NCBI GenBank assembly: GCA_008330645.1
Contig: VLTN01000010.1
Location: 667,616 to 731,615 of the forward strand
Origin: Cafeteria roenbergensis
Lineage: Eukaryota; Sar; Bigyra; Bicosoecida; Cafeteriaceae
Length of the DNA stretch: 64,000 nt
Direction: 5' to 3'
Below the pieces are notes generated by a model. It was not told the DNA's origin and made no database searches. It was given only the letters and a program-made list of their open reading frames with translations. How positions within the stretch are numbered: position 1 is the stretch's first letter; each line of letters starts with the position of its first letter. Shown here piece after piece: positions 10,230-50,097 of this stretch. The position numbers and the translations under genes are program-made.

Positions 10230-10790
10230 GCCCGGCCGTCTCGGAGGACCGGACGCGCGAGCAACCGATGCGCCCGCGCGTTGTGATGGCGGGCGCGTTC
10301 CACCAAGCCCAGACAAGCCGGGACTTGAGTCCCGCATGTTGCGGCCCGCGCAGGGGAGGCGAGGCGGGTTCATTTTCGCCGCCTGCCAAGGCTCGGCGGG
10401 AACGGCGCGCTCAACCCAGCCGCGGCGCGAGAACGCCGCGTTGCAGACTTTCCAGGCGCCGACGGCACGAGCCTCCCTGTCGCGGCGGGAGGGCACTGCG
10501 TGCGCTATCAAGCCGCGTCGGGGGCAGGCGACGGGGTCGCTGCCGGCAAGACCTGCGTGCTCTGCCCTCGGGTGGTCGCTCCTGGCAACGCTGCGCTTGC
10601 TCTGCCGCCGCCAGACGCACGCGGCCACCGCCGCGCTCCCGCGAGGGCCGCAAGCTCTCCAGGCAGGCCTTCGCCTCGCGTCAGGCGCAGGTTCTCTGGG
10701 CCGCTCGCGGAGGCCCGCGTGCTGGCCTGGTCCGGACGCAGTCAGGGCCCGTCGCTAGCGGTGCTCGGCCCTTGGGCGCGCTGGCAAGCA
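10230..10790. promoter_or_regulatory. Divergent intergenic region between the IPT/TIG gene and the acidic-protein gene
   Basis: 561 bp lie between two ATGs pointing away from each other, so both 5' ends and promoters must sit here. The sequence is GC-rich with no clear TATA box. In-frame codons continue upstream of both ATGs, but there is no earlier ATG in frame with the plus-strand gene back to 10500. I see no RNA gene or repeat. Confidence 0.5.
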
Positions 10791-11795: not shown

Positions 11796-12907
11796 AGCGT
11801 GAGAAACTTCGCGCCGCAGCTCCCGCAGTCGAAGCAAGGCTCAGCTCTGCGCTGCGCTTGCTTCCTGCCCATGTCACACGCAAGCTCCGAAGACTGGGGC
11901 GACTGGGCTCAGGGTGCGCATGCCTTAGTCCCCTTGGGGGCCGGGACGCATTCGTCGCGAGCGTTGCCTGCTGCTCGCTCGGCTGCTGTTGAAGCGGAAT
12001 AGCACTGCTGCAGCCGTGGCATCCGGTGAAGCCACCGAGCAAAGGCAGTGCCACCGGGGCAAGTCGCCAGCACGTTGCAAGGTCTCTCTGTGGGTGTGCA
12101 CAGAGCGAAATTCGAATCAATCTGGTTTTGGGTGACGCAATTTTGGTGATGCTGATTGACCCCGTCGAGATTAGCAGCCGTGTCTTTGACTTTAAAAATT
12201 GAACAGTGTCCATCACAGACTCTGGCTGTGGGAGCAATGCTGGTCGTTTTGCCAGCGGAGAACTCAACGCGAAGTTTCGACTTCTGCTCCAAACACTCCC
12301 AATTTTGTGTCTTGTCCAAAGAACCATGAGAACGAAAGTGTGTTGCCGAAACCCGTGGAGCCATCGACTCGAGCACCACATGAACATGGTTGCTGTTCAG
12401 CGCCTTTCTCATTCGCCACAAAGGGGGGGGGGGGGGGCGCGGCCAACTCTCAGCGCGCTGCCCCAGACTGCAAGAATGGGACTCGGCCGCGGCCGCCGGA
12501 ACCGCCTGCGGAACGCGGCGGAGAAGAAATCGCGACTCGGCAAGCGCAGCTTGGAGCGAATCCGGGCCTGCACGGGCTTGAAATCGGGGAGCGTCATCGG
12601 AATGCGGGAGAACCACTCAGCGAGCGGGCGAGGAGCCAATCGCGACGGCCCGCCCATGTTCAAGCGCTGCATGCCCCCGCAGCCAGTTGAAACAAGGGCT
12701 GATGCGCAACGCGGCTCGTCAATCCGTCATCGTTCCGCCAGCCTCCGGTGTCAGTGCTCCTCCGTCTCCCCACGCACACATCAGATCGTGGGAAGTAGGC
12801 GCGGGCGCACCCCAACAGCCAGTTGCCGAGCTTCGCAAACGCGCTGCGGCCGTCTGTGCCGGATGGCAGGCAGCATGTGGAGCAGATGATGCTCTGGCTC
12901 CGTCTCG
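11796..12907. other. Intergenic region with an AT-richer pocket
   Basis: 1.1 kb without a supportable gene. From about 12060 to 12420 the base composition is visibly less GC-rich than the rest of the window, with words such as TTTGACTTTAAAAATTGAAC and CAATTTTGTG. A 15-base G run follows. I compared it by eye with spliceosomal snRNA and tRNA hallmarks and found none. It may hold the 3' end of the upstream gene and the promoter of the acetyltransferase. Confidence 0.5.
12423..12437. repeat. G15 homopolymer
   Basis: Fifteen consecutive G residues on the plus strand at the edge of the AT-richer pocket. The true length is uncertain in most sequencing technologies, and the run could form G-quadruplex structures. 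Confidence 0.9.
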
Positions 12908-14400: not shown

Positions 14401-17400
14401 CTACATCTTGGCCGCCGACCTGCGAGGGCGGAGCATCGGGTTGTCCGTTGGCTTGACGCGCTTCCGGCCAGCCCTGCCAGCAGCGTCGGCGGCTCCCTTG
14501 GTCAGAAGCGCCTCCGGCCCCTGCCCGCCAGAGAGGTGGTCAGGCCCGTCGCGCGGCCCCAGCAGGCCTGCAGAGGACCCTGGCCGCTTCGGCGCGCCGC
14601 GAGCGACGCTCATGCGCTGTCTGGCCGCCTCAGTCGGTCCAAACGTGCTGCGCTGCGCCGAGTGTGACGCCTTGAGCGCTTCGGCACCGCGGGCTCCCAG
14701 GGCACCGGCTGCCGCCTCGGGCTTGCGGGCCGGCGGGAGCGCGCCAGCCGCCAGCATCGGGTTGCCCGTCGAGGCCACGCTGTGCGCAGGGGCGCCCAGC
14801 TCGTGGGAGTCAGCGCTGCCGAGCTGGGGCGGGCTGGCGGGCGCCGGGGTCGCGAGGGAAGCGGTCGCGTCCAGATCGGCGCCCGTTGCCGAGGCCGACG
14901 CCAGGCTGGCCCCGGCCCCCGCCCCCGTGGCCCTGGACTTGGCGCCCCCGATGGACTTTCGGGCCCGGTGGCTGCTCGCGGAGCTTCCGGCGCCGCAGCA
15001 GGCGAGCTTGGCCGGGCCGCCCTTCTCGGGGGCCCTGGCGCACCCGCACCTGACGGCGGACGACGCGCAGCAGGCCACCACAGGGCCGAAACGCAGGCAC
15101 GACATGCACACCAGGACCAGCGCCAAGAGGATTTCGAGCCCGATGACCAGCGTTCCCACGGAGCGCAGCGCCGAGGCGTCCATAGCGCTGTGGGGGGGCA
15201 CGAAGGCCAGCATGAGGGCCAGCACGACAGCGCGCACTGCGGCCACCAGCGTCATCACAACGGTCGGCACCCCGGCCGCCGCCGGGCGGCACGAGAGCAG
15301 GAGCGCCAGGAGAAGGACCTGCTTCCCGAGCAGAACGCCCGCCTGCGCGCCCGGACGGTCCGAGAGGCCAACCAGCACGCCTGCGGTCGCCAGCTGGTCG
15401 AGCAGCAGCAGGGGCTGCCACGCGCGGCCGGCGAGCGACGGCTGGTTGAGTCGGCCCGTGGCGTCCACCGCGCGGACTCCGCTGCCCTGGTACGCGAACG
15501 CGCCGCGCGAGCGGTCCGCGCGTGCGGCGGGGCCAACGCCGCAGCAGCCGCGGCAGCGATGGAACGGCCGGTCGGAGCACGCCGTGTAGGTCACGAGGCC
15601 GAGGAGGCCTGCGACGAACAGGCCGAGAACCAGCCACCCGGCAGCGGTCGGGCCGGCCCGGCCGACGCACTCCTCGCGAGTGACGTCGTACAGGGCGAGG
15701 AGGGAGAGCGAGGCGAAGAAGAGCATCGCAACGACCAGCATTGCGCGGCCCATGGCGTCGGCGATGGCTGCCACGGGGTCCACAGCGGGGACCGTGGGCG
15801 TGGCGCGCGGGCGCGACGCGCGGGTGCCAGCGCCGCCGGAGGAAGAAGCAGCCGCGGCCTTGGCCACGCGCCGCGGCGCCACGGGGTTGGCCTGGTCGGG
15901 CGTGAGCTTGGCCGAGTCGGAGCTGTCGCCCGCGGCCGGCTTGCCGCGGGAGATGGGGTTGAGCGCAGCCTTGTCCGAGCCGGAGGAGGGAGACGAGGAG
16001 GCCGACGAGGCGGGAGCGCCCTTGGCGGCAGCGCCGCCCTGGAGGGGCTCGGGCTGGGCCTTGCCGCGACGGCAGCAGGCCGCGAGGAGGAGCACGCCGT
16101 AGACGAGCGCGACGACAGCCTCGACCAGGACGAAGAGCGCGAGAGCCAGGCCGAGCAGCGCCTCGGGGTGGACGGACAGCGTCGCGGCGATGGTTTGCAC
16201 CGAGGTGGGCGCGGGGCCACACCCGGCCGGCAAGGCCGACGAGGGCGGGTCCTGCGGGAACGCCAGCCAGTCCGCGGCCTCCGTCTGCGCTTCGGAGAGC
16301 ATGCGCGCAGCCGCCGCGGTGCTGTTCGTGGCGCCAAGAAGCGGCGCGCTGCTCGCAGGGGGCGGGAGCATGGGGCCCAGCATCGGAGCGAGGGCGTCCC
16401 AAGCGCCCGGCACGAGGCCGGTGGCAGGGAGGAGGAGGCTTCCGCTGCGGCGGAGGACGGGCGGCAGGGCCACGTGCATCTGGGAGAGCACCACGGAGAA
16501 CAGGCCGTGGCTGGCGGCGTCGAGGAAGCCGACGCCCAGCGCAGCAACGCCCGGCGCAAGCAGCGCGACCTTGGAGGCCGGCCCTGAATGGGATGGCGCA
16601 GTGCCGAAGAGGGCGCGAACCGCATCGCCTCCTGCCTGGCACAGGGCCATGACGCCCACCAGGGCGAGAAGCGCAGCGTGGATGAGCGCGAGCCAGTCTT
16701 CAGAGGGCGAGAGCGGCCCGTAGGTGGCCATGGGCACGAACGCGTCGCCTCCGCCGACCTGCGGGTCGACAGTGGCCGTGCCGTTGGGCTGGGGCGACGG
16801 CGAGGCCTGCGGCGTCGGCTGGGGCGACGGCGACAGCACGATCTCGCAGGAGGCCTCGGCCTCGGTGAGGTTGGACGAGAGGCCTGCCGGGTCTGGCGCG
16901 CAGCCGGGGCACCCAGCCTCGACGTCGACCGGGGAGCAGCCCGACGAGCAGACCACGCCGCCCTCGATCACAGGCGAGACGGCCGACGAGTCGATGGTGA
17001 CGACGACGCCCCGGGACCCGGCGCTCGCGTCGCCGGTGCCGACGGACGTGTCGAACAGCGACGAGGCCGGGTCCGTCGTTGCGGCGCGAAGCCTCGCCTC
17101 AACCGCGGCGCGGGTGGTGGCACCCGACGCGCTCCAGCCCGCGGCGGGGGGCGGCACCAGCACGGACACAACGGCCTTGGAGCCCGCGGCATATGACTGC
17201 GCAGGGCCGGGCGCGCTCCCCGACGACGGCGCCGTCAGGGACTGCAGGGGAGCTCCGCCGCTCGTGCCGACGGGGAAGACCTGCGCCTGCGGGGCACCGG
17301 GAGCGTACGTCTCCGAGATGCCCGCTGCCATGCCAACCGCGACCTGCATTCGCCGGGCGAGCTCGGACGGCGAGAGCGCGGCTCCGCTCACGGCGCCGGA

Positions 17401-20400
17401 GGCGGGCGCCTTGATCGCCACCGGCACGTCGATGCGGATCCCGCAGGCGGCGGCGCTCACCGCAGGCGCGGTGGAGCAGATGCCGCACGCGTCCAGCGAC
17501 GCGGGAGCCTCGCAGCACCTGCCGCCCACGTCCACGACGGAGCAGAAGGCCACGTTGGGCTCCCCGGGCTCGGTGGCGACCCGGACGAACGCCCGGACCG
17601 GCGACGAGGCTGCGCCGATGACGCCCGAGCCGTCGCAGGGCTGCGCCGTGAACACGAACTGGAAGCCGGAGCCGATGAGGTCGCTGCGCTCGGCCACGTT
17701 GACACCCGGGAACTCGGCCACGCCGCTCCGGACGGCGACGGACGTGACGACGCCCGAGGACCCCGAGCTGGACGCTGTGGCGGCGGCGCGAAGGCCGGAA
17801 ACCTCGCCGAGCCGGTCTGCCGAGTACACTGCCAGGTGCACGACCGTGCTGGTGTCGGACGCCACCGGAGTGCCGAAGTCGTCCACCAGCATCACGCGAG
17901 GCAGCGGCGCGAGGGAGGCGCCCTGGATCAGCACTGGCGGCACGCGGTCGATGCGCATGCCGGTCACGGCGCCGGCGCGGCCCGTGATGTGGTACTGGCC
18001 CGTCGTCAAGTAGAAGGCCTGCGCCTGCGACCACGGCCCGGCGCTGAAGCCCGACGCGGAGTACTCCAGTGCGACGACGAAGGTCCCGCGCGGGTGCGAC
18101 GGCACCGTGCAGATCACAAAGGCGTCCATCGGCGGCTGGCAAGATCCAGTCGCCGAGCCCGTGATGCGCTGACGGGTGTCCTTTGAGGCAATCACGCTGC
18201 GGTACACCACCGTTGCCGAGACGTCAAAGTCCCCGCCGAAGAATTTGATGGATGACCCGGGGCCGGACGCGCCGGACGACGGCTGGGCGCTGCTCACGTA
18301 CGGCGTCCCAGCCTCCACGACGGTGCTGCCGCCGTCGGTGAGGAAGCCCGGCGGCGTCACGTCGGTCCCGGAGCCAGAGCCCGAGCCAGAGCCCGAGCCA
18401 GAGCCCGAGCCAGAACTGCCAGATCCGGATCCGGTTTCAGTGCCGGAGCCTCCGTCAGAGCCGGAGCTCGAGCCGGAGCCGGAGCCGGAGCCGCCAGGCG
18501 CCACCACCGCGAGCGCGCACTTGCCGAAGGCGCAGTAGCCGCTGAGGCAGTCGGAGGCCTGGGTGCACGGCATCTGCAGCGGGCAGGGCGCGCAGGCGCC
18601 TCCGCACTGGCCGGGCTGGCAGGTTGCCGCCGGCTGGCACACGCCGCCGAGGCACGTGCGGGACACGCAGTCGCTTCCGGAGCCGCAGCGCGAGAAGACG
18701 GAGCAAAGCCTGCTGGAGCCACAGATGGCACCGCAGTCCCGGTCCGCCTCGCGCGAGGGCTGCCAGATTCCGTCGAAGCAGGTTCCCGTGCCGCAGGTGC
18801 CGAGCCTGGCACCGACGAAGGCGAACTGGCACTGGCCGGACGCGCACTGCGCGGAGCTGGCGCACGCCTGGCCAACCTGGGCAGGGCCGCAAGCCGGGCC
18901 CACGTCCACCGCCACCTCGCCCGGGTCAAGCCTGCCGTTTGAGCAGTTGGAGGGCTTGGAGCAGATGCTGTTTTCGCAGCGCGAGCCAGCGACGCAGTCC
19001 CCGTCCACGACGCAGTGGGACGTCGGAGGGCAGCCCTTGGGGCAAGACCCGCCGCCGTCCACGCACATCTCGTCGCCGGAGAGCGTGGCGTCCGCGCAGT
19101 GCTGCTTCGAGCAAACGGCCTGGCTAGGGTGGCAGAAGCCCGAGAGGCACTGCGCGCCGACGCGGCAGGCCTGGCCGGAGGCCTTGAGGTCGCCGCAGCG
19201 CCCGCCCAGGTCCACCTCGGTCTCGCCAAGGTCTTCATCCCAGATGCCGTTGGTGCAGTGGTCAGGGGGCTGGTCGCAAAGCAGCGTGAACGGGTCGCGG
19301 GAGCCGGTGACGCACGCGGCATCCGACGGCGCGAGCTCCCCGGCCTGGCAGAGCGGGCACCCCTCCGCGCCGCACCTGTTGTCGCATGTCGCGACGCAGG
19401 TGCGAGACACGCAGCGGAGCCCGGAGGCGCAGTCCTGCGTCGCGCCGCACTCGCCCCCTTCCGGGCAGGGCCCGCACAGGCCGCCGCAGGTGCCGTTGAA
19501 GAGCGGGCAGGTGAGGCCCGAGCCAGAGGAGCCGCCGCCGGTGGAGCCGCCGCCGGTGGAGCCGCCGCCCGTGATGTTGCGGATGGCGTCCTCCGTGAGG
19601 GGGGCGCACTTGCCTGCGACGCAGGAGCCACCCAGGCAGCCCGCGTTGGACGTGCAACTCGCTCCCGGAAGGCAGAGCGGGCAGCCGGTGGTGGTGGTCC
19701 CGCAGTCGATGTCCTGCTCGAGCCCGTCCTTGACGCCGTTTGTGCAGCTCGGGGCCTTGCAGACGCCGGCAACGCAGCGCCCAGTGCACTGCGAGGACGC
19801 AGAGCAGGAGACGCCCGGCTGGCAGAGCGCGCAGCGGGGTCCGCCGCAGTCGCCGCCCGGAGCCTCGTCCGACTGGGCGATGCCGTCGGTGCACGACGGC
19901 GCGGCGCAGAAGCCCGCCACGCACGAGCGCGACGAGCAGTCCACGCCGGCAGTGCAGCGCTTGCCCGTGGCGCAGCGCTTGCAGCCCGTGGTGCCGCCGC
20001 AGTCCGTGTCCGCTTCGCCGCCGTTCTGGCGGCCGTCCTGGCACGTGGACGGCTCGCACTTGAGGGTGAGCGGGTTGCAGTTCTTGGAGGAGCAGTCGCG
20101 GTCCAGCTTGCACGTGTCGAAGGCGGCGCACGGCGCGCAGGTGGGGCCGCCGCCGTCGACGCAAGTCTCGGCGCCGCCCATGAACCCGTCAGTGCAGGTC
20201 GGCGGGGGCACGCACTTGTCGTTCACGCAGTTGTTGCTGGCGCAGTCGTCGCCCGAGACGCAGCGCTGGCCGACGAGGCAGGTCTGGCAGGCGGCAGGGT
20301 CAGAGGGCAGCATCGTGCCCACCGTGCCGCAGTCGACGTCCGACTCGGTCACCGGGTCGCGCACGCCGTCGGAGCAGGTCGGGGCGCGGCAAGTCTTGTT

Positions 20401-23400
20401 GGCGCAGGCTCCGCCGGTCGAGCAGTCCGCGGCGACCACGCAGGAGGCGCCGAGGCCGCACAGGCCCTTGCCGGCCGGCTTGTCAACGCAGGGCTCCTCG
20501 CCGTTGCGCACGCCGTCCGTCAGGGTCGGCGGCGCGCACACGCCGGGGTTGACGCTGGACAGCGCGCCGCTTCCGGCGTTGACCGGGCTGCACACCTTGG
20601 AGCGGCACTGCTCGGAGAAGACGCACGGCTCAAAGTCAGGCAGGTTCCTGGTCGTGTTGTCCACGCGAGGGGGCCCACCGCCGTTCCCGCCGCTGGCGTC
20701 GCCGGGGTCGATGGTGCTGATCTGGCAGTGGCCAAGGAAGCACATGAGGCCGGCGGCGCAGTCCGCACCCGACACGCAGGTCCGGCCCTCGTGGCAGCCG
20801 ACGCACGAGCCACCGCAGTCGATGTCCGACTCGAAGTGGGCGTCGCCAAGGCTGCCCTGCTTCACGCCGTCCGTGCAGCTGGGCGCCTTGCACTTGCCGC
20901 CGCTGCAGACGCCGCTGACGCAGTCGCCGGCTGAAGCGCAGCCGGCATCGTCCGCGCACCGCGCGGCGCACGTGGGACCGCCGGCATCCACGCACGTCTC
21001 GTCCCCGTTGGCCTGGCCGTCGGTGCACGAGGGCTGCTCGCAGAGGCCGGTCTGGGCGGAGCAGAACAGCCCGGCGGCGCAGGCCGAGTCGTCGCCGCCG
21101 CAAGGCGTCTTGATCGGGCAGGGCCTGCCGGGGCAGGGGCCGTTGTCGCCGGAGCAGTCGATGCCCAGCTCGGCCAGGCCAAAGGGCGCGTTGCGCACCC
21201 CGTCCACGCACGAAGGCTCGAGGCAGACGCCAAAGGCCTGCACGCTGGACTTGCAGTTGGCAGCGACGCCTCCCGACGGTTGGCCACCGGGGCAGAGGCC
21301 GCACGGGCCGGTGGCGCCGCTGCAGTCGATGCCGAGCTCGGAGTCCGCCTTGACCCCGTCGGTGCACGAGGCGGCGGCGCAGGTGCCGTTGGAGGCGCAG
21401 ACGCCCGAGGAGCACACGCTGGCACCGCTGCTTTCCGTGCACGCCGTGCCGGTGGAGCAGCGGCGCCCGCAGGCGGCCTCGCCGCAGTCCGGGCCCAGCT
21501 CGAACCCGTTCATCACGCCGTCCGAGCACGTCGCAGCGACGCACAGGCCCGAGGCGGCGTCGCACGACCCGGCGCACTCCGAGTGCGCCGAGCAAGTGGC
21601 GCCGACCGCGCAGGGCGAGCAGGCGGACGTCCCCGCGTCGCACGGCCGGCTGCCAGTGGGGCAGCCGACGCCGTTGTCCGGAGGCGAGGTCGTGTTGGTC
21701 ACCTGCTCGGGCAAGCAGACGCCGGCGAAGCACTTGCCGCTGGCGCAGTCGGTGGCCTTGCTGCACGCGCTGAGGTCAGGGCACGCCGCCGAGCAGACGC
21801 CGCCGCAGTCCACCGCGGCCTCGTCGACCGCCTTCTTCCCGTCGCTGCAGGACTGCGCGAGGCAAGCGCCGCTGGTGGCGTTGCACGAGCCGCTGAGGCA
21901 GTCTTCGTCCACCGCGCACTCGCTCCCCGCGGGGCAGAGCGCCGGGCACGGCCCGCCGCAGTCGACGCCCGCCTCCCGCACGGGCCCGTGCCAGTTGCGA
22001 ACGCCGTCGAAGCACGTGGCCACCGCGCACGTCGAGGTCGCGGCGTCGCACACCCCGCTGCCGGGAGTGCAGTTGGCCGCCGCGGAGCACGACTTGGCCG
22101 ACGTGGGGAAGGCGACGAGCAGGGGCGGGGCGAGGTTGCCCGCCGCGTCGCGCACGGCGCCAGCAGCCACCAGCACGGCGTAGGCCGCGCTCGCGTGGCG
22201 CGGGACCCCGGGAACAGACACGTCAATCGTGACGTCGCGTCCGACAGCCAGGCCGGGCAGCGACTGGTTGGCAGGCGTGGAGTACTCGACCACGGGCTGC
22301 AGCAGCGGGTCGAGGCCGCGGAACTCCTGGGGCACCGTCACGCCGCTGGGCGAGGACGAGTCGGTTCCGTTCGTGGCGGCGAGGGCGCGGCGCCGGGAGG
22401 CGGCCCCCTGCCCTGCCTCGAGCGCCAGGCGCACGGCGGCGGCGCCTTCCGCCCCGGTCTCGTTCAGCCACGCGCGGAAGCGCTCGGCGCGAGAGAGCTG
22501 CGCCAGCGCAGTGACGGCCGCAGACGGGATGGCGTCCATGCTGGGCCACCACGCCAGGACCAGCGCGCCGTAGCCCTCCACGGCGGGAGGCGGGGACGGG
22601 TTCCGCTCGACCGACTCCGAGAAGCGCATGGACACCTGACGGAGCGCTCCGGCGCCGAACTGCGCGCCAGCCGCGGGAGATGAGGACACCAGAACCGGGC
22701 TGGTGGTGTCCAGCGACGTGCGCACGCGCCACGAGCCCGGGCCGCTCGCGGGGACGGCTGCACCGGGCGCGAGCACGTTGCCCGCCAAGTCCTTCACGAA
22801 TCCGTCGCCCGCGCCGCCGGAGGAATCGAGAACCACAGCGTACCACCTGCGGGACTGAGAAAAGGCAGCGTCGCTCAAAGCGAGGGTCAGGCGAGTGGTG
22901 CCTTCGCCGTCCACGCGAGCCGGGGTGAAGGCGAAGTTGAGCGTGTCCACCACGATGGACCCGCTGGAGGACGCGGTGGGGTCGACGGCCTGGGCCTCGG
23001 CCTCTGTGGCAACGGAAGTGGGGAGCGCAAAGACGCGCATGGTCGCGCCAGGGGCCATGAAGACCGGCTCGTCGAACGTCAGCGACAGCGACGCGCTGCC
23101 GAGCGCAACGCTGTCAAAGCCGGAGGCGGGCGACCTCTGCAGCACGGCCGGGGCCGTGAGGTCCTCAACGCGGAAGCGGAGCTCGCGCTGCGCACCCGCG
23201 CGCGAGGCAGCGGCGTCGGAGGCGAAGCGCGGGTCGGGCAGGCCCGGGAAGGAGTTGCCCGACTTGTCCGTCACCAGCCCCCCCTGCACCGTCAGGGTGT
23301 ACTCGGCCTTTTGCACAAGCGGGAGCAGACTGGACGCCAGCCACACATGCAGGCTGTCGTCCTCGACGGACACCAGCTGGCCTGCCTCGGCGGCCGTCAG

Positions 23401-38400: not shown

Positions 38401-41400
38401 CTGCGCTGCGGGAAAACCGAGCCCGGTTGCGTCCAGCAAGCCTCCGTTGCCAACCAGGGCGGTCTTGCCGTGCACAGACACGTCGCCACCGCGAACCCGC
38501 CCGTGCAGTGCGAGCGCAGCGGAAGTCGCGTTCACGGAGACGGGGCACCGGCTGGCCTCGCAGTCGATGCTGGCCGAGGGGAGCATGCTCACGAAGCGCG
38601 CGTCGCACCCGAACGAGAGCTCGTAGAGCCGCGGGTACCGCAGGTCCGACTTCCAGTACTCGAAGCGGAGTCCTGTGACGTTCACCATCGGGTTCTCAAA
38701 GTGCACACGGAAGCGCCCGCTTCCGCCCAGGTACTTGGTGCCAGCGTCCTCCCCTGTCCTGGAGAAGGTGCCGTCGCGGGACCCGAGCTCGGTCTCAACG
38801 TCGCCCTCGAAGTTCACAAACGTCGCCGAGGTGTCCACTTCCCTGGACGAGCCCTCCCCGTGGCCGCGCAGCGCGTAGACGCGCCAGCCGAACAGGCCTT
38901 GCGTTCTGGTCCCGGTGCGACCCTGGAGCATGTTCACGTTGGTGGCGGTCCGGTTGCCCTGCTCGTCGACAAAGTACAGGTCGAAGCTCTGGTCGAACGA
39001 CACGAAGGTGGACGCGTCGCCGTCTCGCGCTTCCGCCATGGCCTCGAGGTCGAACTCGAGGGACTGGTAGTCTTGGAACGCGCGCAGCAGCGAGACGGGC
39101 CGGGCCTCCGGCTGGGAGCACGCTTGCTCGTGCACCCACGGGGAGCCGCCCTTGGCCTCGGCCGCAGCGCGAACGGACATGAGGGAGTCCCCGCGGGCAG
39201 CCATCTCCTCGCGGCCCAGCACCTCGACTTGGCCGCCGGAGAGCAGCTGGCCCACGCGCTTCATGTTCACAACGTCTGCACCGATCGACACGGTGGAGTT
39301 CGGCCCTGGCGCAACGACCTTGCCGTACAGGTCGATCTGGCGGGCGCGGATGCGCACCAGCCTCGCCTCGCTCTCCGGCAAGGTCCCGTTGAAGGCGCGC
39401 AGCGGGGAAAGCTCTGCCGTCTCGTGGATCCTCACCCGTGCGCCCATGAGCACGGCAGTGTCGTTGATCGCCACGCGCGCGTGCGTCCCGATGACAGCGA
39501 GCGCGAGCGTCGACGGTGCGTCCGCCGGCCAAGGCGTGACCGAAGACGTCGCTCCGGCGTTCCGGACCTCGATGCGCTCGCCAGTCGCGTCGGTTGACGT
39601 GAACACGGTGCCCGAGGACCCGGCGCAAGCCGTCGAGGCGGTGCCCCCCTGGACCTGCAGGTCGACTTCTGCCGAGATGCCCGCGGGAGCGCGAACGGCC
39701 ATGCGGCCGCCGCCGCCAGAGCCAGACTTGTACCCACCGCTGTTGAAGCCGTTTCCGCCGCGCGCGGCAACCAGGCCAGCGCCCCTCAGCGATGCTGCCT
39801 GCACGTCAATGCTTCCTCCCGAGCCGCCTCCGCCGGCCTTGGCATCCACAGACCACCACCGGCCTGTCTCGCCGTCCGCGCTCACGCGCGGGAGCGTCGA
39901 GCTCCACGTCTGGTCGAAGCGGACGGGGCCGGAGGACGCCTCCACACGAATGCGGCCTCCGCCAGCGCCGCCGAACGGCAGCTCTTCGCCGTTGACGAGG
40001 ACGCCCTGGCCAGCAGACCCATAGTCCCAGGGCGCCGTCGCAAGGCCGTGCGCGTCCCCGATGACCGAGCCGGGCGCGCAGGAACCCGACGCGACGCAGA
40101 AGTCGCCGCCCTGCCCGCCGTGGGAGCCTCCCGCGCCCGACACCTGCGACGTGTTGGGGCACGCGCGGCCGTCAAACGTCGAGGAGCTCGGAGTCCAGTA
40201 GTTGCGCACCGCCGTGCCCTGGCCGAAGCTGCTGAGCTCGCCCGCAAAGTCCGCGTTGACGTCGCTGCCGATGCGAACCTCGGGCGCAGAGAGGGACACG
40301 GTGGAGCCGTTGATGCTGCCGAACGACTGCAACAGCGCCCCAGGCCGGGTGAGGGACACGGACACCGAGCAGCCGCGCTCGCCGCAGAAGACTCGCGGCA
40401 GGCTCGTTGCCTCCGTGGTCGCAGCCTCGTTGGTGCCGAGGAACAGGCCGGTGGCCGAGCATTCCGGGAACACGCCGCTGGCGTAAAATTGCGACGTGGT
40501 CGAGTGCTGGACGAGGAGCTGCGTAGCGGTCACGGGGTGGGTCAGCGTGAAGTAAATGGACCCGGTCGACGACGCCAGGGCCTCGGAGTTGCCGGAGCTC
40601 TCTTCGATCTGGGCTCCGGGCACCCGCTGCCAGTTGGGCGACGCCGTGTCCGAGCCGTCGGTCGTGTAGGACAGGACCAGCGACTGCGACGCGCGGTTCG
40701 TGTTCGCAAGGTACTTGAGAAGCCGGACGCGGACCCGCGACACGGTCACAGTGCGGTTGTAGTCGAACACGACGCCGCAGCTTGTGGACCCCGAACGCGA
40801 CACGCACACGCCAGTCTCGTCGTCTTCGTCAAGCAAAGACGCCTTCGCCTGCTCGTCGCTCGAGGCGCACTCGAGGCTGGAGGACGACATGTACGAGCCG
40901 AACGCCGGCCGAACGGACTTGGGCTTGAGGAGGTCAGAGCTGGACGTGCACTTGGGCGGCTGGCCCTCCAGCAGGCCGGAGCCACGGGAGCTGACAGCCC
41001 AGCCCGGGTTGGCGAGCGACATGCCCGGGCCGCGTCGCCAGAGCAGCTCGTCGGGGTCGGAAACGTCGTTGAAGGACGCGTCCGTGATGACGAGGGACTT
41101 GGTCGCTGAGATGCGAGAGCCGGCGTGGTTGGCCGTCTTTTCCAGGAACGTCTGGAGCGCGTCGACGGTGTACTCGGAGCCCTCGACGTGCGCCGTGGAG
41201 CCCACGCGCAGCTGAGCGGCCTTGAGGACGCCCGAGAAGGGCACCTCCAGCCTCGTGCCCAGGTCAACCTGGACCAGCGTGAGCGTGTCCGGGAGACCGG
41301 CGGGGAGCGGCGTGCGCGCCCAGCCCGCGTACCCCCCCCTGTTGGTCACGTAGAGGCCCGAGAAGCCCGGGGTGGTGACGAACACGGTACCGGCGGCGCC

Positions 41401-44400
41401 AATGCCGTCCGTCGTGACCCACGAGCTGTGGCCTCGCGCGAATACGTTAATTCTGGGGTCGAAGTCCCCAGTGAGCCGCAGCGCGATGCGGCCGCCGGAC
41501 CCGGCGCCCCCGCGGTACGAGTTGGATGCCCCCGTGCCGCCGTCGGCAACGAGCTCGCCAGTCCCAGCCACGCTCGTGGCCGTGATGAGCACGGCGCCGC
41601 CCGAGCCGCCGCCTCCCGAGGTGCTGGTGGAAGCGCCGTTCTCGCCGTTGGCGCCGCTCGCCCACAGATGGGACGAGGCCATCCACAGCCTGTTGGTGGC
41701 GATGCGAATGGCGCCCCCGCCCGCGCCGCCCCTGCCGCACCACCTGCTCGGGCGGGAGCCGCTCTCAGAAGAGGCGAGCACCGGCGCGGAGCAGTCAAAC
41801 TCCCAGCCGAGGCCGCCCCCAGATCCAACGTGGGTGGGCGTGGTCACGGAGCCGTAGGTCTCGCCGCTCTCGAACCTCGCAGCCAAGGACGGGTCGTCCG
41901 AGGCGCACGACGAGACCGAGGTGAGAGTCGGGGAGAGCCCGCCCATGCCGCCGTACGCGGCGCCGGCGCCGGAGATGCGCTCCCGGCACGCGCCCAGGGG
42001 CTCCTGCTCGTGCGACGGCGCGCCGGGGCCAGACGCGCTGGCGAAGCCGCGTCCGTTGGTGTCGATCTCCATGTCGCCGAGGTACACCCGGTCCGAGACT
42101 TCAAGCGCCACCACGCTGCCCTTGATGTCGCTGTCGATGAACGCCCTCGCTCCGGGACTGCGAGCGCGCAGCGTGACGCCGCAGAGGTAGCCCGTGCACC
42201 CCACGCTGCTGGTGGGCGAGAGCACCCAGTTCGGCGCGCCGCCACAGCCCCACTCCGCCTCGGAAACGCCAAAGCTCCAGCCACTGAGCGCGTCCGGCCG
42301 GTAGATGCGCCAGTACCGCGCGGTCCGGGCAGGCCACCGCATGAACGTGCGCGACTCGGCCAGCGTGGTCGTCGAGGAGCTCACAGTGCCCTGGTCCCAC
42401 GCGCTGACAAAGTTGGTGTCGTCGTCGGAAAGCTCGACCCGGAGGACGCCGACGTCGTTGTTGCCACTGACGTCGGACGACATGGCCATGACCTCGACGT
42501 GGTCCAGCGTCACCGCCTCTCCAAAGTCAAAGCGGAGCCACGAATTGCGGGACGCAAACGTCCGGATGCCCGTCGAGGGGTCCTCGTCCGTCAGCAGCGC
42601 TCGCGCCCCATCCACGACCACGGTGGAGCTTGAAATGGGGCTCAGGCTCTCCGCCTGGACACTGTAGGACTCGAGAAGGCTGGCCTGGGAAGCGTCGCAC
42701 AGCGGGTGCGTGCGCTTGAGCTCGTCGTCCGCGGCCGAGCGCCACGCGTCGTCGTCGACCAGCGTCTCGTTCACGGCCTCCACGGTCCCAAGCACTTCCA
42801 CCTCGAGCGCCGACACGTGGAGCCGCTCGCCGCCCTGCACGCGCGCCGCGGAGCCAACGTGAACGTGACGCCCCTCAAGGGCGGTGCCCGACAGCACGTC
42901 CACAACGGCCGAGTCCACAAGGACAAAGTCAAAGAACTTGTGGCGAACCGGCTCCAGGAGGGACACGTCGCGGCTGGGCTGCCACAGGCCAGGCTTGGAG
43001 CTCAGCGCCACGGACGGGAGGCCAGACTCGGCAGCAGCAGCCTGCTCGGGCGTCCACGGCCACGGGGTGACGGACTGCACCTGGAAGTTGCTGGAGACCC
43101 CGCGGAGACGCAGCGTCCGGTTGAACTCCCCTGCCTGCGACGCAGTCTCCGCCGCGAAGGGCTCCGAGAAGTTCAGGCCGGCCGGCGACAGCGCCACTTC
43201 CACGGTGATCACGCCGGCGCCACCGAAGCAGTACACGTACGAGCTGCTGGAAAGCGTTGCGTAGATGCGGTCCACCAGCTCGGGCGCGGGGAGGTTGCCC
43301 GAGCGCACCAGCACGCGCCCGCCGGCGCCGCTCGACCCCCTGTTTCCACTGGCGCCATACGAACCGCCGCTCGTGTCAATGCCACCGGCCAGGTCCACCA
43401 GGACCTTGGCGCGGAGCGCGATCGAGCCGCCGCTGCCTCCTCCGCCAGTGGTCGCTCCCAGCGAGTCGGAGGACCCGGCCGCGCCCTTGGCCTCCAGGCA
43501 GCGGGGGCTGTGGGAAGAGGTTCCCAGCGCGGCCAGCTGGCTCGCGTCCACAGTGATGACGCCACCGCCCGAGCCCCCGAGGCCCTGGATGCGCGACGGG
43601 TCGCCGACTGCCTCGTAGTTGAAGGAGTCGCCGCCGCCGCTGCCCCAGGTCGACGGGAAGGAGGTCGAGCCGTACGCGCGGCCACCCTGAAGGAAGTTGG
43701 TCCACTCCGAGGCAGAGGGCGACCCGCACTCGCCGCTGTGCAGCTGGCACGAGCGCCCGCCCACGCCGCCGTGACCGGCCGACGCGCCCGAGCGCTTGAC
43801 CGAGCACACGGAGGTGTCGACGGCAGGGGGTGCGCCGGGCCCCGCGTTGCGCGGGTGGCCGAGGCCGGATGCGGACACCTGGCCGGCGATGTACAAGAAG
43901 GGAGCCGCGAGGCTGATGTTGCTGGCCACCGTCTGGCCCTCGAGCACCACGTGCGCAGAGCTGCGGCTGAGGTTCAGGGCCAGCCGGCAGCCTCCCGTTG
44001 CCGCGCGGCGGCTGTCCCCGAAGCCGCCGCCGTGCTCGTTGGTGGACAGCTCCACGCCGCAGGTCACGACCGAGGTCGACCCAAACACGGAGAGGTCCGC
44101 GCCGCACACGGGCTGGGCCTCGGCGATGGCCCCCATGCGCACCGAAGTGGATGCCTTGCGAGACAGGCGGACGGCGGTGGTGCGCACCGGCTCCTTGGGC
44201 TCGAAGCGCACGAGGGTGTCCTGGCTGCGGATGACGTAGTAGGAGTCTGTCCAGTCCGTCCAGTTGGCCGCGTCGGCCGAGGCCGAGTACCAGGCGCGGC
44301 GGGACGAGTCGGTGCGCTCGTTGTAGGCGTCTTGCGGGTCCAGGGGCCCCATCGGGTTCTTCTGGGCGAGGAGATTGATGTCAGTGAAGTCGCTCTCCCT

Positions 44401-47400
44401 TCCCGGGTGGGCGAGGATGAAGACGTCCTGCACCGGCACCTTGCGGGACGGGTGAAGCTGGAAGTGGGCGAAGCCGTAGGACGTGGCCGATGTGTCGAGC
44501 TGCGGGCTGCGGGAGTCTCCGTCGGTGAACTCGCCTCCGTCGAAGATTTGCACGCGCTCGTCCGGCGAGCGCACGGCGGACCACTGGCGGAGGTGGCCGT
44601 GGGAGTCCGTCAGGGCAGGGTCGCACTGCATGGTGCGTGCCGCTGCGCCCAGCGCCTCCTCGTCCTCGCGGTACCAGACGGCCTTGCTGCCGGGCTGCCC
44701 TGCAGCGCCGTGGCCGCCGGTGAAGGACTCGTCCGTCCAGGCCAGCCCGTCGGTTGCGGACACTCGCCCGTTCACGGTCGCCTGACGCACGTCGATGGTG
44801 AAGGTGGAGCCGTTGATGCGGCTGTTGGCGTCGAGCCTGAGCGTCTCGGCGCGCAGCGTGGCGCCGTGCGGAATCTCCAGCAGCGCCAGCCGCGTCACCA
44901 CCACGCGGTGGAGCTTCGCGGGAGAGTCGTCAAACTCGAGGCCGTCGTCCAGCAGGTCGGCGGGCATCGGGGTGGTGACGTTGGGGACGGAGCTGCCCAG
45001 GCCGTTCGCCCGAGACACGCCGTTGCGGTCCGCCACAACGAGCGTCCGGCTCGCGTTGGCCTCGACGACGACGGTTCCCGCTGCTCCCTGCGACAGGCGG
45101 CTGTCGACCCCGGAGTAGCCGTATCCACGCCCGGGGTACGCCTGAAGCTGCACGTCCGGCGAAAGTTGCGCGCTGCGGGCACGGAGGAGCAGGCGGCCGC
45201 CGCCGCCAGCCCCGCTGGGGGACGTGGAGGAGGCACTTGAGCCGCCGTTCACAGACACGTAGCCTTTGCCGACCACCTGCAGCGCGTCCACGAGGATGCC
45301 GCCTCCGGAGCCGGCGCCGCCGCGGAGCGAGGTGCCGGAAATGCTCGTCGAGTCGCTGCCGTCGGCGCGAATGGCAGCCTCTGATGAGCCCATCGCGAGC
45401 GTCGCGGGCGACGTGACCGTGACAATGCCACCGCCGCTGCCGCCCGTGCCCGTCCATGCCCGCTGGGTGTCCTCCGACACGTGCGCGGGGTCGGCGCCAC
45501 CGCTTCCGAAGTCGGCCGTCGGGCTCAGGCCGCCGCCGTACGGGGAGCCGCCCGCGGTGATGGGCGGGGACGAGGGCAAGGACGCGCCCAGGCCTTCCAT
45601 GAACCGGTTGGGACCTCCCGCCCCGCCGTACGCGCCGCCAGCGCCGCTGGCCGACCGCAGCTCGTCGCCGAGCCGGGAGGCCGCAGGGGAGCCCTTTCCG
45701 CTCCCCGGCCCGTGCCCGAGCCCTGACGCGCCCAGAATGCCGTAGAGCTCGACGTCGCCGGCCGCAGACACCGTTAGGTTTCCGCCGGACACGGACGCTT
45801 CGAGCACCATGTGCGGCTCGGGGAAGGCCTCCCCGCGCTCGAACCGGCCCGAGCCGAGAACCACCGGGCAGCGGTTGCGCGTGCACCTCACGGCGACGGT
45901 GGCCTCCGTGTTGTCGCTCAGGACCGCGAGCCCGCCCGGGACGCAGAAGGGCCGGAACTCTGAGAGCGAAATGTACCTCCCGGAGGCGCTGTTCGTCGAG
46001 TGCACCAGCATGAGTTCCTTTGCCAGGACTGGCTCGACGAAGCGCACGTCCCTGACAAAGCCCGCGCTCATGCGATCGCCGTGCCCGCTGCTGACGTACG
46101 GCACGTCTGTCCACGAGTCAGAGGCAGACTTGCGCCACCGAACGCGCAGGTCCTGCCACTCGGACTCCCTGTTGGACGCGAGGAAGCCCGAGCCCGCCGC
46201 GCGGAAGCCGCTCACCCAGCGGGGCGCGCCGAAGGACATCTGGGGCCAGTTTTGGTACATGCGGAAGCCCGTCTGGTTATCGCCGTCCCACAGCGACGCG
46301 GGGTCCAGCCACGCCCCCGTGTTGTAGCCGCCCGAGGAGGCAAAGTTGCTGGAGGGGTTCTCCCAGGCCCACGTCAGGTTGAGCTCCGCCGCGGTGTCGG
46401 CGTGCGAGTCAGCCGAGGCGCCACAGCGGTGCACCGAGCGGGAGCCGACGGCCAGCGCGGTGCTGGATCCGTCGGCCACCAGCCTCACGCCGTCCGTCGC
46501 GGACACCTGGCCGTTGGGCGCGACGACGACCTCAAACGCATGCACGTCCACGGCCTGCCCGACCAGCCGCCCGGCGCTGAGCACGCGCACCGCGCCGGCG
46601 CGGAACCGGGTCGTCGCCTCGAGTCCGACGCTGGCGTCGCCGGCCGCGGAGTAGGAGTCAGCGAGGCGCGAGGACGAGGCGTCGGCCGAGCGCGGCGCGG
46701 CCGCCGCTCCCTGAACGATGTCCAGCTGGCCCAGCCCGGTGATGGCGTTGAGGGCCGTCGCGTGCAGGGGCGTCACGGCCTGCAGCGAGGACTGCTGCGA
46801 CGAGCCGGCCTCGATTCGCACGGTTGTGCGGCCGTTCTCGCTGGTGTACACGGTGCCTGCGCCGCCGTAGCAGCTTCCCACAGTGCTCGTGCGGGCGGAG
46901 ATGGAGGGCACGCCCCCGTCTGCCGGCTCCGGGCTGAGGTCGTCCTCCACGGTCACGGACACGCGGCCACCTCCGCCGCTGCCGCTGTACGCTTTGGACG
47001 AGCTGGGGTTGCCCCCGCCGTCGGCCGCGATGGTGGCACCCCCGCCCAGGAGGCGGGACCCGGTGACAACCACCGACCCTCCGGCTCCTCCGCCGCCTCG
47101 CCTGTGGTAGGTCGAGGACGCGCCGAACTCGCCAAACGTCCCGGACGCGGTGAGCGACGCGCCAGAGTTCATGGCGATCAGGCCAGCGAGCGCGGCCGAG
47201 GAGGAGCCTGCGCCGGCGCGAGACGCCAGCGACGGGCCGAGCTCGCCCCAGTCGGCCGAGACCCTGACAACGCCGCCGCCGCGCCCGCCGCGGCCCCGCG
47301 GAACGCCGCCGTCGACGCCGGCACCGCCTCCGCTTCCAAGAGTGGCCGGCGCCACGATGTCTCCGTACGTGACGTTGAAGGCGCCCTCGTACGTCTCCGC

Positions 47401-50097
47401 GGCGTCGTCCTGGCCCGTCGGTCCGCGCAGGTTGCGCCACGACGTCACGAAGGGCAGGCAGGTCGACGACCGGTAGCAGGAACTTCCGCCGGTGCCGCCG
47501 TGAGACGCGCCCGTCCCCGCGGCCGAGGGTGCCGGGCAGTCGCCCGAGCGCGGCGCCGCCGAACGGCCGGCGCCCGGGCCGGACGAGGAACGGTGCCCGA
47601 GGCCGTCGGCCGACAGCATTCCGCCGACGCTGGACTCGACGGCCTGCAGCACCACGGCGGAGGCGCGCACGTGCACGCGAGGCGCCACGATGCCGCCGCC
47701 CGCGTCCGCCACGAAGGGCAGTCCCGTGCCCGTCTGGTCCACGTCCACGGTGCAGTCGTCAGCAAGGCAGGTCAGCCGCGCCGCGGAGCCGTGGAGGTTG
47801 ACGCCGCGAGCTGCGTCGCAGATGGGACGGAGGAAGCCCATGCCCAGCCGCCGCGTGGAGGGGAGCTGGAAGCGCAGCGCGGTGGTGTTGAGCGGCCGGG
47901 AGAAGTGGACGATGGCCGGGCCGGTCACGGCGGCGATGGAGGCGGCCAGGGGCGCGCTCTCCCACGTGGCCCCGCCGTCGCCGCTCGTCTCGACCCGCAG
48001 CTGGTGGAGGTCCCCGTTGCTCGTGAGAGCGCCGGACTCCAGCGCGGCCACGGCGATGCCGGTGAGCGTCGCTGGAGCGTCGAAGGCGACGGCAAGCGAC
48101 GGAGAGCCCTGCCTGGTGGTCACCAGGCCGCGGGCGAGGTCGAGGGAGCGCAGGTCGGAGGCGTTGTTGCCTCGAACGCTGTCCAGCGCGGGGTCGGCGT
48201 GAGATGCCGCCGCCAGCACCCGGAAGGAAGCTAGCAAATCGGAGTTCCCCTGCGCCTCGCAGCGGGCGGCGCCCTCGGCCCACTCCTCGGGGAGCGACGC
48301 GCGGGCCTGCGCCGCGGTGCGCTGCGCGTCGCTGAGGCGCAGGAACGTGCCCGCCACCACCTGGCCCGCGACGTCAGCGTCGACGGTTACCAGGTCCAGC
48401 CTGGCGGGCCCGAGGAGGCTGGACCCCGATGCCACCACGAGGCGGCCCGTGACGATGGCAGCAGACGCGTGAGGAACGCCGAGCCCGGGCACGCCCGAGG
48501 CGGGCACGCCTGCGCCGCTGGCTGCGGCGGCGGCACCGGCCGCGGCCCAGCCCGCGCCAGCGCCTGCGATGGCGACCACGTCCGACCAGTCGCCGGAGAC
48601 GAAGGAGCGGCTCAGCACCGGCGGGTCGAGCTGGAAGAGGCGCTCCGCGGCTAGGGCGGCGTCCCTGGCGCTCACGGAGCCATCCAGAGCAAGGAACGGG
48701 TGCTTCGCCGTCCCGGGAACGGGCAGCGCCAGCGGGTCCGTTGCGCGCTCCGCGTCGGGGACGACCAGCCCGGCGGCCAGCGCGGCGCTTGGCGAGGCCG
48801 CCGCGCTCCCCTCGGCCGCGACGAGCGTGCGCACCCGCGCCGAGCCGCTGATGCGGATGCTGCCCCACTTGCGGGCGCTCGCGCGCGCGGCGGCCTCCTG
48901 CTGCTGCGTGGCGAACCCGGCGGGCGCCGACCCGTCGCTGCTGGTTGTGGCCGGGAGCACGACGGGCGCGTCGAGCACCGAGAGCACGGTGGCAAAGTCG
49001 GTTGCCCTGTTGTTGTTGTCGACGACGAGGGAGACGGCCCGGTCGCCGTCTGCAGCGACGTGCGCGATGGTGCCGGCAGCGCCAAAGTAGTAGACTGAGG
49101 CTGTGCCGCCATAGGCCTGCAGCGTCAGCGAGGAGTCCAGCGACCCGTCGGCAGCTGCGCCGGCGGACACGTGGGCGGACTTTGTGCGAACGATGATGCG
49201 GCCGCCGCCGCCGGCACCGCCGCGCGCCCCAGACGTCGTGGAGATGCCGCCGCCGGAGGCAGAGACAGTCGCACCGCCGCTGACGGAGCCAGCCGCAGCG
49301 TCGAGCAGCACGGAGCCGCCGGAGCCGCCGCCGGACGACGCCTGCGAGCCGGAGTGGTACACGCCGTTGGCGCCGTCCGCCTTGACGACGCCGCCCGAGG
49401 CCAGGGCGATGGACCCCGACCTGGCTACGACGCGGACGACGCCGCCAGCGGCGCCACCGGGCTGGACGTCCAGGCGCTGGACGCTGGTCTGCCCCGGGTT
49501 GCGGAACAAGACCGACGCCGGCCCTCCTGGGGCGCCAGGCAGGGCCTCCAGCGAGTCCCCGAAGCCCCGGCCGGCCTCGCCGGCGAAGAGCTCGGCGGCC
49601 ACGCAGCCCTGCGCCGGCACGGAGCTCCAGCCCGAGGAACCGGACCCGCCGAAGCCTCCGCCGCCGCCAGGGACGCTTCCCACGCAAGTCCCCCGCCCGT
49701 GCCCGCCGGCACCGGTGGCGGTGGTGTTGGCGGGCGCGGGGGCGGCGAGGGCGGACGCATCGAGCACGCCCGTCGCCGAAAGCGAGACGGCCGAGCCGTT
49801 CACCGTCAAGTCGCCGGCGCGAACGGTGCCAGCGACGGCAATCTCGCCGCCGAACCGAAGCGAAAGGCGGCAGCCTGCCGATGCGCAGGTCAGAGAGCCC
49901 GTGCTGGTGATCTGCAGGCTGCCCGAGCCGGTGAGCTCCGAGTCGCCGCTCAGGGCTTGGGCAGTCGAGACAACGCAACTTCCGTCCACGTCCCCGCTGT
50001 CGCAGGCGATGGCGGCCAGCGCGGGCGACGCTGCGACGAAGAGCAGCGCAATTGCGGCCGGAAGGGCCGCGCGGAGAGCCCCGGTCGAGGCTCGCAT
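14401..50097 (-). CDS. Giant modular cell-surface protein, 11,898 residues, single uninterrupted frame
   Basis: Starts at the ATG at 50097 with a clear signal peptide ([20 protein letters not shown], cleavage near ALA-AIAC, residue 28-29) and ends at a stop at 14401. Domains in order: twelve glycine-rich/discoidin-like modules (about 30-6850); unassigned beta-rich sequence; LamG-like domain (about 7450-7690); about ten SbsA/Big_5 Ig-like domains (about 7890-9335); about 18 Cys-rich repeats (about 9336-10525); Gly/Ser hinge; IPT-like domain; eight or nine membrane helices (about 11130-11670); cytoplasmic tail of about 227 residues. Discoidin, LamG and Ig-like modules normally bind glycans or proteins outside the cell, so a surface adhesin or receptor anchored by a polytopic domain is inferred. 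The 35.7-kb frame has no stop, which is strong evidence of selection. No named orthologue is recognised. Confidence 0.92.
14404..15085 (-). other. Cytoplasmic tail with repeated NPML motif
   Basis: About 227 Ala/Ser/Arg-rich residues after the last helix. The motif N-P-M-L occurs twice (TGNPMLAAG and [10 protein letters not shown], the latter at the extreme C-terminus), and a related LNPIS lies in the large loop between membrane helices. Its function is unknown; it could be a sorting or interaction motif. Confidence 0.6.
15085..16710 (-). other. Polytopic membrane region of the giant protein (8-9 helices)
   Basis: Hydrophobic segments include [131 protein letters not shown] and [18 protein letters not shown]. 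Cys pairs flank several segments ([14 protein letters not shown]). No known channel or receptor signature is seen. A polytopic anchor is unusual for an adhesin, which normally has one helix. Confidence 0.8.
18020..18330 (-). other. Membrane-proximal IPT/TIG-like domain of the giant protein
   Basis: [27 protein letters not shown], two cysteines ([13 protein letters not shown]) and a closing [11 protein letters not shown] strand match the IPT pattern. It is followed (17590-17990) by a strand-rich Ig-like segment ([27 protein letters not shown]). This links the giant protein to the IPT/TIG protein at the left of the window by domain type only. Confidence 0.55.
18353..18512 (-). repeat. Gly/Ser hinge with imperfect 12-bp repeats
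   Basis: The protein reads as runs of GSGSGSGS. The DNA shows imperfect copies of a GAGCCAGAGCCC word (about 18361-18415). It probably acts as a flexible spacer between the Cys-rich stalk and the membrane-proximal domains. The unit is a multiple of three, so length changes keep the frame. Confidence 0.9.
18515..22095 (-). other. About 18 cysteine-rich repeats of the C-x-D-G-x-x-N-G type
   Basis: The repeating consensus is C-x-D/N-G-x-x-x-G-x-E-x-x-x-D-C-G-G-x-C-x-x-C-x-x-G-x-x-C followed by D-C-x-S-x-x-C-x-x-G-x-C (for example CTDGVKQG and [16 protein letters not shown]). About ten or more cysteines per unit imply a disulphide-rich extracellular stalk. Similar repeats occur in large surface proteins of protists and some myxobacteria. 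Individual repeats are well diverged. Confidence 0.85.
22090..26430 (-). other. About ten SbsA/Big_5-type Ig-like domains
   Basis: Recurring D-x-x-P-P openings followed by a hydrophobic strand, P-A-x-G-x-x-x-V/A, then L/V-x-F-S/D-E-P/D-V mark each domain (for example [20 protein letters not shown] then [30 protein letters not shown] then [12 protein letters not shown]). A V/A-D-x-A-G-N turn ends most units (DAAGN, DGSGN, DRAGN). This is the bacterial Ig-like domain 5 pattern found in S-layer and adhesin proteins, here in a eukaryotic gene. Confidence 0.8.
27040..27740 (-). other. LamG / concanavalin-like domain of the giant protein
   Basis: The segment has an [14 protein letters not shown] strand, [28 protein letters not shown] followed by a bound-ligand style [14 protein letters not shown], and a terminal strand ending [10 protein letters not shown]. 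This is the strand order expected of a jelly-roll lectin-like domain. Sugar or protein binding outside the cell is the usual role. Confidence 0.55.
29540..50010 (-). other. Twelve repeated glycine-rich / discoidin-like modules of about 570 aa
   Basis: Each module ends with a SATD-type strand followed by a F5/8C-like stretch (for example [57 protein letters not shown]), then a Cys-containing strand, then the signature G-A-G-x-S/Y-H/Y-G-G-x-G-G, then Gly-rich strands of the type [12 protein letters not shown].....A.GG, then G-A-A-G-T-V-Y and L-V-V-D-x-N. The signature lies near plus-strand 49700, 47500, 45640, 43770, 41950, 40125, 38320, 36670, 35020, 33700, 31470 and 30055. The Gly-rich part looks like a parallel beta-helix or solenoid. 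The discoidin assignment is by pattern only. Modules are diverged, unlike the IPT array. Confidence 0.75.

Follow-up and report, generated by a model that had tools for sequence, protein, structure and literature searches.

An 11,898-Codon Gene of Cafeteria roenbergensis and Its Predicted Giant Protein with a TRP-Like Membrane Domain

Introduction

In polycystin-1 (PKD1), a TRP-related polytopic membrane part bears a very large ectodomain that includes Ig-like repeats and a sugar-binding module. This protein is the nearest general precedent for the subject of this paper: a single gene of the marine, bacterivorous protist Cafeteria roenbergensis that is predicted to set an ectodomain of about 11,100 residues on a TRP-like membrane domain. 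The gene lies in the terminal 64 kb of contig C10 (positions 667616-731615 of 731,615), a stretch of DNA that we call, at its full length, the window. We know of hardly any prey-recognition receptor of a free-living heterotrophic flagellate that has been identified, and a cultured bacterivore in which TRP-like membrane domains bear lectin-like heads would offer a concrete gene family for study. The reading that we prefer, tentatively and from sequence, is a giant receptor-adhesin whose multivalent, lectin-like tether is carried by a TRP-like membrane domain and serves contact sensing or prey capture.

How close are the known systems? The window protein shares the general plan of polycystin-1, but its parts are ordered differently, and REJ, PKD, GPS/GAIN and PLAT are all absent from its Pfam matches at an expectation value (E) ≤1 (whole protein, in three overlapping pieces). 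Fission-yeast Pkd2, whose membrane domain has nine helices, conducts Ca2+ upon membrane stretch (PMC11277609), and pkd2, trp1322 and trp663 are the TRP-like channels of fission yeast in a study based on Pfam family PF06011 (PMC8618638). Like Pkd2 and the fungal Flc/TRP-like proteins, the window protein has nine predicted membrane segments, and paralogues of it pass the PF06011 cut-off. Unlike them, the window copy itself falls below that cut-off, and in place of the small domain of lipid-binding type at the N terminus of the fungal proteins (PMC8618638, PMC11277609), it has the giant ectodomain. The Salmonella adhesin SiiE (PMC5466336) is likewise a very long chain in which bacterial-type Ig repeats form a reach-giving stalk; however, SiiE is described there with type 1 secretion and 53 BIg domains, whereas we find a signal-peptide-like start, a membrane-spanning end, and six Big_5 stretches. 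Unlike other F5/8 type C (CBM32) proteins, finally, the window protein alternates its discoidin domains with 12 Gly-rich solenoids in one chain. Sheer size is no rarity: more than 41,000 proteins in UniProtKB exceed 5,000 residues (PMC11573180).

Discoidin, Big_5 and TRP-like domains are familiar kinds of module. In the open-access literature searched, we found no description of this module order or combination, of three co-linear paralogues of 10-12 thousand residues, or of their shared stalk-membrane core. A preliminary description, made from the letters of the window alone, had put the gene forward as a candidate for an undescribed system, knowing of no named family with this order; for the architecture, and within that literature, "undescribed" is fair, although the general plan has its precedent in polycystin-1.

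The Gene and Its Paralogues

14401..50097, (-) strand: the whole gene, 11,898 codons, about 1,190 kDa, ATG to TAG, no intron required

The frame, about 35.7 kb from ATG to TAG, has 0 internal stops, just as first described. The dull explanation would be an artefact, whether from the merging of several genes, from a pseudogene or from a frame that is open by chance, and long chance frames do arise in GC-rich DNA, such as that of the window (G+C 0.63-0.81 in 2-kb steps). The 11,898-codon frame is nevertheless not a product of chance, because the longest stop-free runs in six-frame simulations of the same composition (n = 40 for each model) peaked at 1,025 codons for an order-1 Markov model (mean 632) and at 1,379 for an order-2 model (mean 960). 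The remaining five frames of 14401..50097 hold 140, 77, 42, 109 and 235 stops, and G+C at third codon positions (GC3) of the gene stays at 0.84-0.92 over its entire length.

A further argument comes from elsewhere in the genome (36,303,456 bases in 167 contigs were searched). Two other loci, C43:245715-282494 (-) and C64:154537-188193 (+), encode paralogues that are co-linear with the window gene across its module junctions, and we therefore take the window frame to be, as far as sequence can say, a single gene rather than several. Counted from start ATGs that we picked ourselves, in C43 by alignment, the C43 paralogue has 12,162 codons, and the C64 paralogue reads cleanly for 10,485 codons until, close to the end of its contig, the frame is broken, which counts in favor of an artefact. 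The window protein aligns with that of C43 over 11,531 residues at 48.4% identity (37-68% in each of 23 full 500-residue windows) and with that of C64 over 9,591 residues at 45.2%. Between the window gene and C43, nonsynonymous divergence (dN) is 0.52 and synonymous divergence (dS) is 1.53, which is near saturation; dN is below dS in 12 of 12 windows. Taking co-linearity, dN < dS, GC3 and the stops of the other frames together, we reject run-together genes and the other artefacts as extremely improbable.

Nor do introns seem to remove any part of the frame, let alone the large parts that would have undone the first description of it as intronless. Relative to C43, the window protein has four inserts of at least 15 residues, and a GT[AG]AG[TC] donor is present in 0 of the 4, although the genome does use introns: published Cafeteria gene sets have 1.67-1.89 per gene (PMC6972860), and a neighboring ankyrin-repeat gene has, by eye, GTGAG...GCAG introns between its repeats. 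The gene is in this sense a clean natural example of how 11,898 residues can stay in a single frame, with nothing to suggest introns, beside two diverged paralogues.

The paralogues have some oddities of their own. GC3 contrasts strongly among them (0.53-0.83 in C43 and 0.61-0.84 in C64, against the values given above for the window gene). C43 and C64 share a tract of 9,930 aligned bases at 97.9% DNA identity with 72 gap positions, although elsewhere their proteins are 34-50% identical (C43 residues 1-8500); the tract may reflect gene conversion, recent duplication or an assembly join. Toward the contig end, the C64 translation shifts frame repeatedly.

The Ectodomain

Residues are numbered 1-11898 along the protein, and the limits of solenoid and discoidin modules come from profile hidden Markov models (HMMs) built in this analysis; we used profiles because no pair of at least 150 residues emerged when the protein was compared with itself by BLAST to find the module period.

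50011..50097, (-): signal-peptide-like start, residues 1-29, with a hydrophobic stretch at 14-32; assigned from hydropathy and visual inspection, not from a dedicated predictor
49063..49908, (-): Gly-rich solenoid module 1, residues 64-345, HMM
46837..47790, (-): Gly-rich solenoid module 2, residues 770-1087, HMM
45985..46299, (-): discoidin (F5/8 type C), residues 1267-1371, HMM
45058..45909, (-): Gly-rich solenoid module 3, residues 1397-1680, HMM
43189..44022, (-): Gly-rich solenoid module 4, residues 2026-2303, HMM; within modeled unit 2012-2612
42238..42606, (-): discoidin (F5/8 type C), residues 2498-2620, HMM; best Pfam stretch residues 2491-2602; modeled as a galactose-binding-like jelly roll
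41374..42219, (-): Gly-rich solenoid module 5, residues 2627-2908, HMM
40453..40848, (-): discoidin, residues 3084-3215, HMM
39595..40404, (-): Gly-rich solenoid module 6, residues 3232-3501, HMM
37765..38595, (-): Gly-rich solenoid module 7, residues 3835-4111, HMM
36970..37317, (-): discoidin, residues 4261-4376, HMM
36127..36945, (-): Gly-rich solenoid module 8, residues 4385-4657, HMM
35317..35685, (-): discoidin, residues 4805-4927, HMM
34513..35247, (-): Gly-rich solenoid module 9, residues 4951-5195, HMM
33178..34017, (-): Gly-rich solenoid module 10, residues 5361-5640, HMM
31948..32304, (-): discoidin, residues 5932-6050, HMM
30868..31929, (-): Gly-rich solenoid module 11, residues 6057-6410, HMM
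29557..30363, (-): Gly-rich solenoid module 12, residues 6579-6847, HMM
26398..29130, (-): conserved region without a recognized domain (claimed LamG site), residues 6990-7900, kept among paralogues
22138..26400, (-): Big_5 bacterial-type Ig stalk, about residues 7900-9320, approximate limits; six stretches pass individually
18508..22107, (-): Cys-rich repeats, residues 9331-10530, no Pfam name
16738..18330, (-): juxtamembrane ectodomain, residues 10590-11120; weak alpha/beta prediction of low confidence

The preliminary description had proposed a giant modular surface protein built of discoidin-like and Gly-rich solenoid modules, a LamG-like domain, bacterial-type Ig domains, Cys-rich repeats and a polytopic membrane part; all but one of these parts are recognizable, and in that order. 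The start is hydrophobic at the matching position in both paralogues. Behind it, the 12 solenoids alternate with at least six discoidin domains, for which the Pfam profile F5_F8_type_C, suggested at the outset as a check, gives E 2.4e-14 and 54 bits against a cut-off of 28.2, over three stretches of residues 1-4000. The best single stretch in a profile search of the genome reaches 30.6 bits, and the modeled unit, scanned alone, 27.0, just under the cut-off; in the predicted structure of that unit (residues 2012-2612), the jelly-roll fold expected of an F5/8 type C domain is present. A fold search against the PDB probed the solenoid itself barely at all, the discoidin part filling the match list. 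Against a viral structure library, the unit gave seven matches at E ≤0.001, with low TM-scores (template modeling scores) and with some of them covering more than the discoidin part.

All 14 matches to solenoid module 4 in the genome fall at C10, C43 and C64. Relatives of one solenoid module beyond this genome were found neither in genome contigs (with a single protein or the A5 alignment as query) nor in viral contigs (A5 alignment) or plasmids (single protein), in searches that covered no other eukaryotic genome, that seed outside the Gly-rich core and that distant relatives could escape.

The part left unsupported is LamG: neither it nor any other lectin profile was listed at E ≤10 in the window segment or two paralogue segments, in profile scans that do not test the fold and whose HMMER filters discard most matches above about 0.1. 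The Big_5 stalk passes its Pfam check with ease (E 4.9e-42, 143.4 bits against a cut-off of 23.6, six stretches). Residues 9331-10560 contain 166 Cys, and a regular expression for CxDG...DCGG-type repeats matches the Cys-rich region 15 times. A region near residue 10600 looks TIG-like by eye, yet Pfam does not list it, and we do not claim it; we also discarded weak Pfam labels (LPD7, CD24, BACON_2, Fn3_PTPRU and a BAHCC1-like Tudor), and an NCBIfam scan of five segments gave weak, implausible matches only.

The Membrane Domain and the Family Core

15046..16704, (-): membrane domain with nine hydrophobic segments, residues 11132-11684, linked to Pfam TRP PF06011 via paralogues
14404..15045, (-): tail beyond the last membrane segment, residues 11685-11898, presumably cytosolic
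14422..14508, (-): conserved C-terminal motif, residues 11864-11892, ending DNPMLRPRR

Was the "polytopic membrane anchor" of the first description rightly named? Polytopic it is: hydropathy of seven family members draws 11 peak lines, three of which overlap in one segment, leaving nine regions, the number of helices in a PF06011 membrane domain, and 9 of the 10 helices of at least 20 residues in a low-confidence model fall on these regions. Its kinship is clearer in its relatives. Among 12 aligned membrane-domain members, 11 match PF06011 at E ≤1; of the seven scanned singly, L037 (30.0 bits) and L039 (31.0) pass the curated cut-off of 28.5 bits and four others, at 16.7-21.8, fail. A genome search with the profile gave 16 matches, nine above the cut-off alone and two more with same-frame neighbors; the window and C43 are not among the 16. 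By sequence, the domain of the window reads as TRP-like by descent through its paralogues, yet we do not file it as a PF06011 member, because its own score lies below the threshold and because the ML/TRP_N lipid-binding domain was not found ahead of the membrane part (no Pfam match at E ≤10 in seven members).

The word "anchor" may be too modest, because the polytopic part is common to many loci. A 261-residue query from it found 14, the window itself included, the others at 35-42% identity. Seven of the 16 PF06011 matches lie at loci new to that query, and the union of both searches holds 21; these are loci rather than genes, the counts are lower bounds, and near-identical loci (C16, C89, C109 and C116, for example) may be alleles or duplicate contigs. 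The Cys-rich stalk travels with the membrane domain: a 220-residue query from it gave 79 matches in the genome, and it lies upstream of the membrane domain on the same strand at 13 of the 14 loci, the exception being C49. At least one stalk match and the membrane domain have equal open-frame lengths at 10 loci (C10, C43, C132, C61, C8, C125, C26, C16, C89 and C93); at C80, C109 and C116 the lengths are unequal, so that an intron or frame break separates the two there. With the stalk at 13 of 14 loci and module 4 at only three, stalk plus membrane domain is, by sequence, the shared core of the family, and the 12-solenoid head is seen at three loci only. The locus at C49 (L044, region 95156-95899) is a shorter-looking relative, in which the membrane domain follows a short stretch with a possible separate start; no match to the Cys-rich stalk was listed in its vicinity.

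The tail, too, is kept. The motif DNP(M/L)LxPRR, or something close to it, ends 8 of the 12 aligned tails, and suggests an intracellular partner. Three tails (L037, L038 and L041) are without it and retain the preceding LLA(K/R)G..DA.RRA part, and a fourth (L036) also lacks it, apparently running out of frame. Shared stalk, membrane domain and tail, with the head at three loci, would fit a family of receptors with varied heads.

There is a plainer account, in which the protein is a passive giant adhesin or coat, the nine-segment domain being a mere anchor or an Flc-like transporter, with no signaling. The PF06011 homology of the window copy is indeed weak; the fungal TRP-domain protein Flc1 is reported to regulate flavin transport as well as calcium (PMC9600462); and extracellular and surface proteins form a large group among bacterial huge proteins (PMC11573180). 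Against this, membrane domain and C-terminal motif are kept among paralogues of differing size, beyond the need of a passive anchor, and we place the passive account somewhat on the unlikely side.

A Possible Receptor-Adhesin

How might a giant receptor-adhesin work? The putative signal peptide would direct the protein to the cell surface, where the first ~6,850 residues of the ectodomain would form beta-solenoid rods bearing the discoidin (CBM32-fold) domains. As one long, multivalent tether, these rods would hold on to glycans, plausibly those on bacterial prey or on surfaces, and the Big_5 and Cys-rich stalk would transmit load to the nine-segment, TRP/Pkd2-like membrane domain. Binding or pull would then open a Ca2+ path, or recruit cytosolic partners via the conserved C-terminal motif, and the Ca2+ or partner signal would lead to ingestion or attachment. 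We infer that the protein sits at the surface, binds glycans, transfers load and signals through Ca2+ or an adaptor: the lectin-like part because the discoidin units have, in the model, a galactose-binding-like fold, and the signaling part because the TRP similarity, although weak, runs through the family.

Several observations weigh against this scheme. In the whole-protein scan, the membrane domain of the window scores only 9.2 bits against PF06011, and two other scans do not list it; the matches of its relatives span mostly profile positions 288-402 of 426, only two beginning earlier. The C-terminal part is poorly modeled (predicted local distance difference test, pLDDT, 47.2), with no PDB relative at E ≤0.001, and a search of PDB sequences with the A3 profile is empty at E ≤1. 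On the lectin side, six of the 11 gaps between solenoids have an assigned discoidin domain and one more probably has one, leaving four unsupported, and only 4 of 33 singly scanned modules match F5_F8_type_C at E ≤0.1. Fold matches of the C-terminal structure were set aside as unusable, given the low confidence of the model.

What, then, would be gripped? In a bacterivore, bacterial or surface glycans are the likely ligands, and self or substrate adhesion fits equally; the anatomy is compatible with prey capture, adhesion or a coat. The chain might serve attachment, mating or flagellar surface organization rather than feeding: discoidin and Ig stalk domains would serve adhesion of any kind, and adhesion-type genes of C. 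burkhardae (the former C. roenbergensis) are up in stationary phase and not in exponential feeding growth (PMC7852580). Nothing specific speaks against such a use, and sequence cannot tell the two apart; we consider it unlikely.

The receptor-adhesin reading can be pushed further, to a whole class of mechano-lectin receptors in bacterivorous protists, in which multivalent solenoid-discoidin ectodomains of ~11,000 residues would be fused to a TRP/Pkd2-like, force-gated Ca2+ channel, with varied heads and a shared stalk, channel and cytosolic docking motif. This is speculative, and we would call it unlikely as it stands. If true, it would supply a molecular candidate for the sensing and selection of bacterial prey by a free-living flagellate.

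Neighboring Genes and Other Giant Frames

Scans of the window found no tRNA, Rfam match or useful terminator signal. The next gene downstream (window 1-10369, (-), reaching C10:647618; L023 and L024) also looks giant, with frames of 2,007 and 8,128 codons, the latter still open near the edge of the examined DNA, and it has many IPT/TIG repeats and Ephrin_rec_like matches. Elsewhere, C80:96395-113920 (L017 and L018) holds another giant frame (5,842 codons); read by eye, its translation is at first cadherin-like and then TIG-like. Upstream of the 11,898-codon gene and on its strand, a long frame at window 51645-58667 (-) has a Kinesin motor domain (3.3e-95). The ankyrin-repeat-like gene (by eye) at window 59208-63801 (+) consists of tandem units of ~284 bp, each an exon plus one of the introns already mentioned, and is cut off by the contig end.
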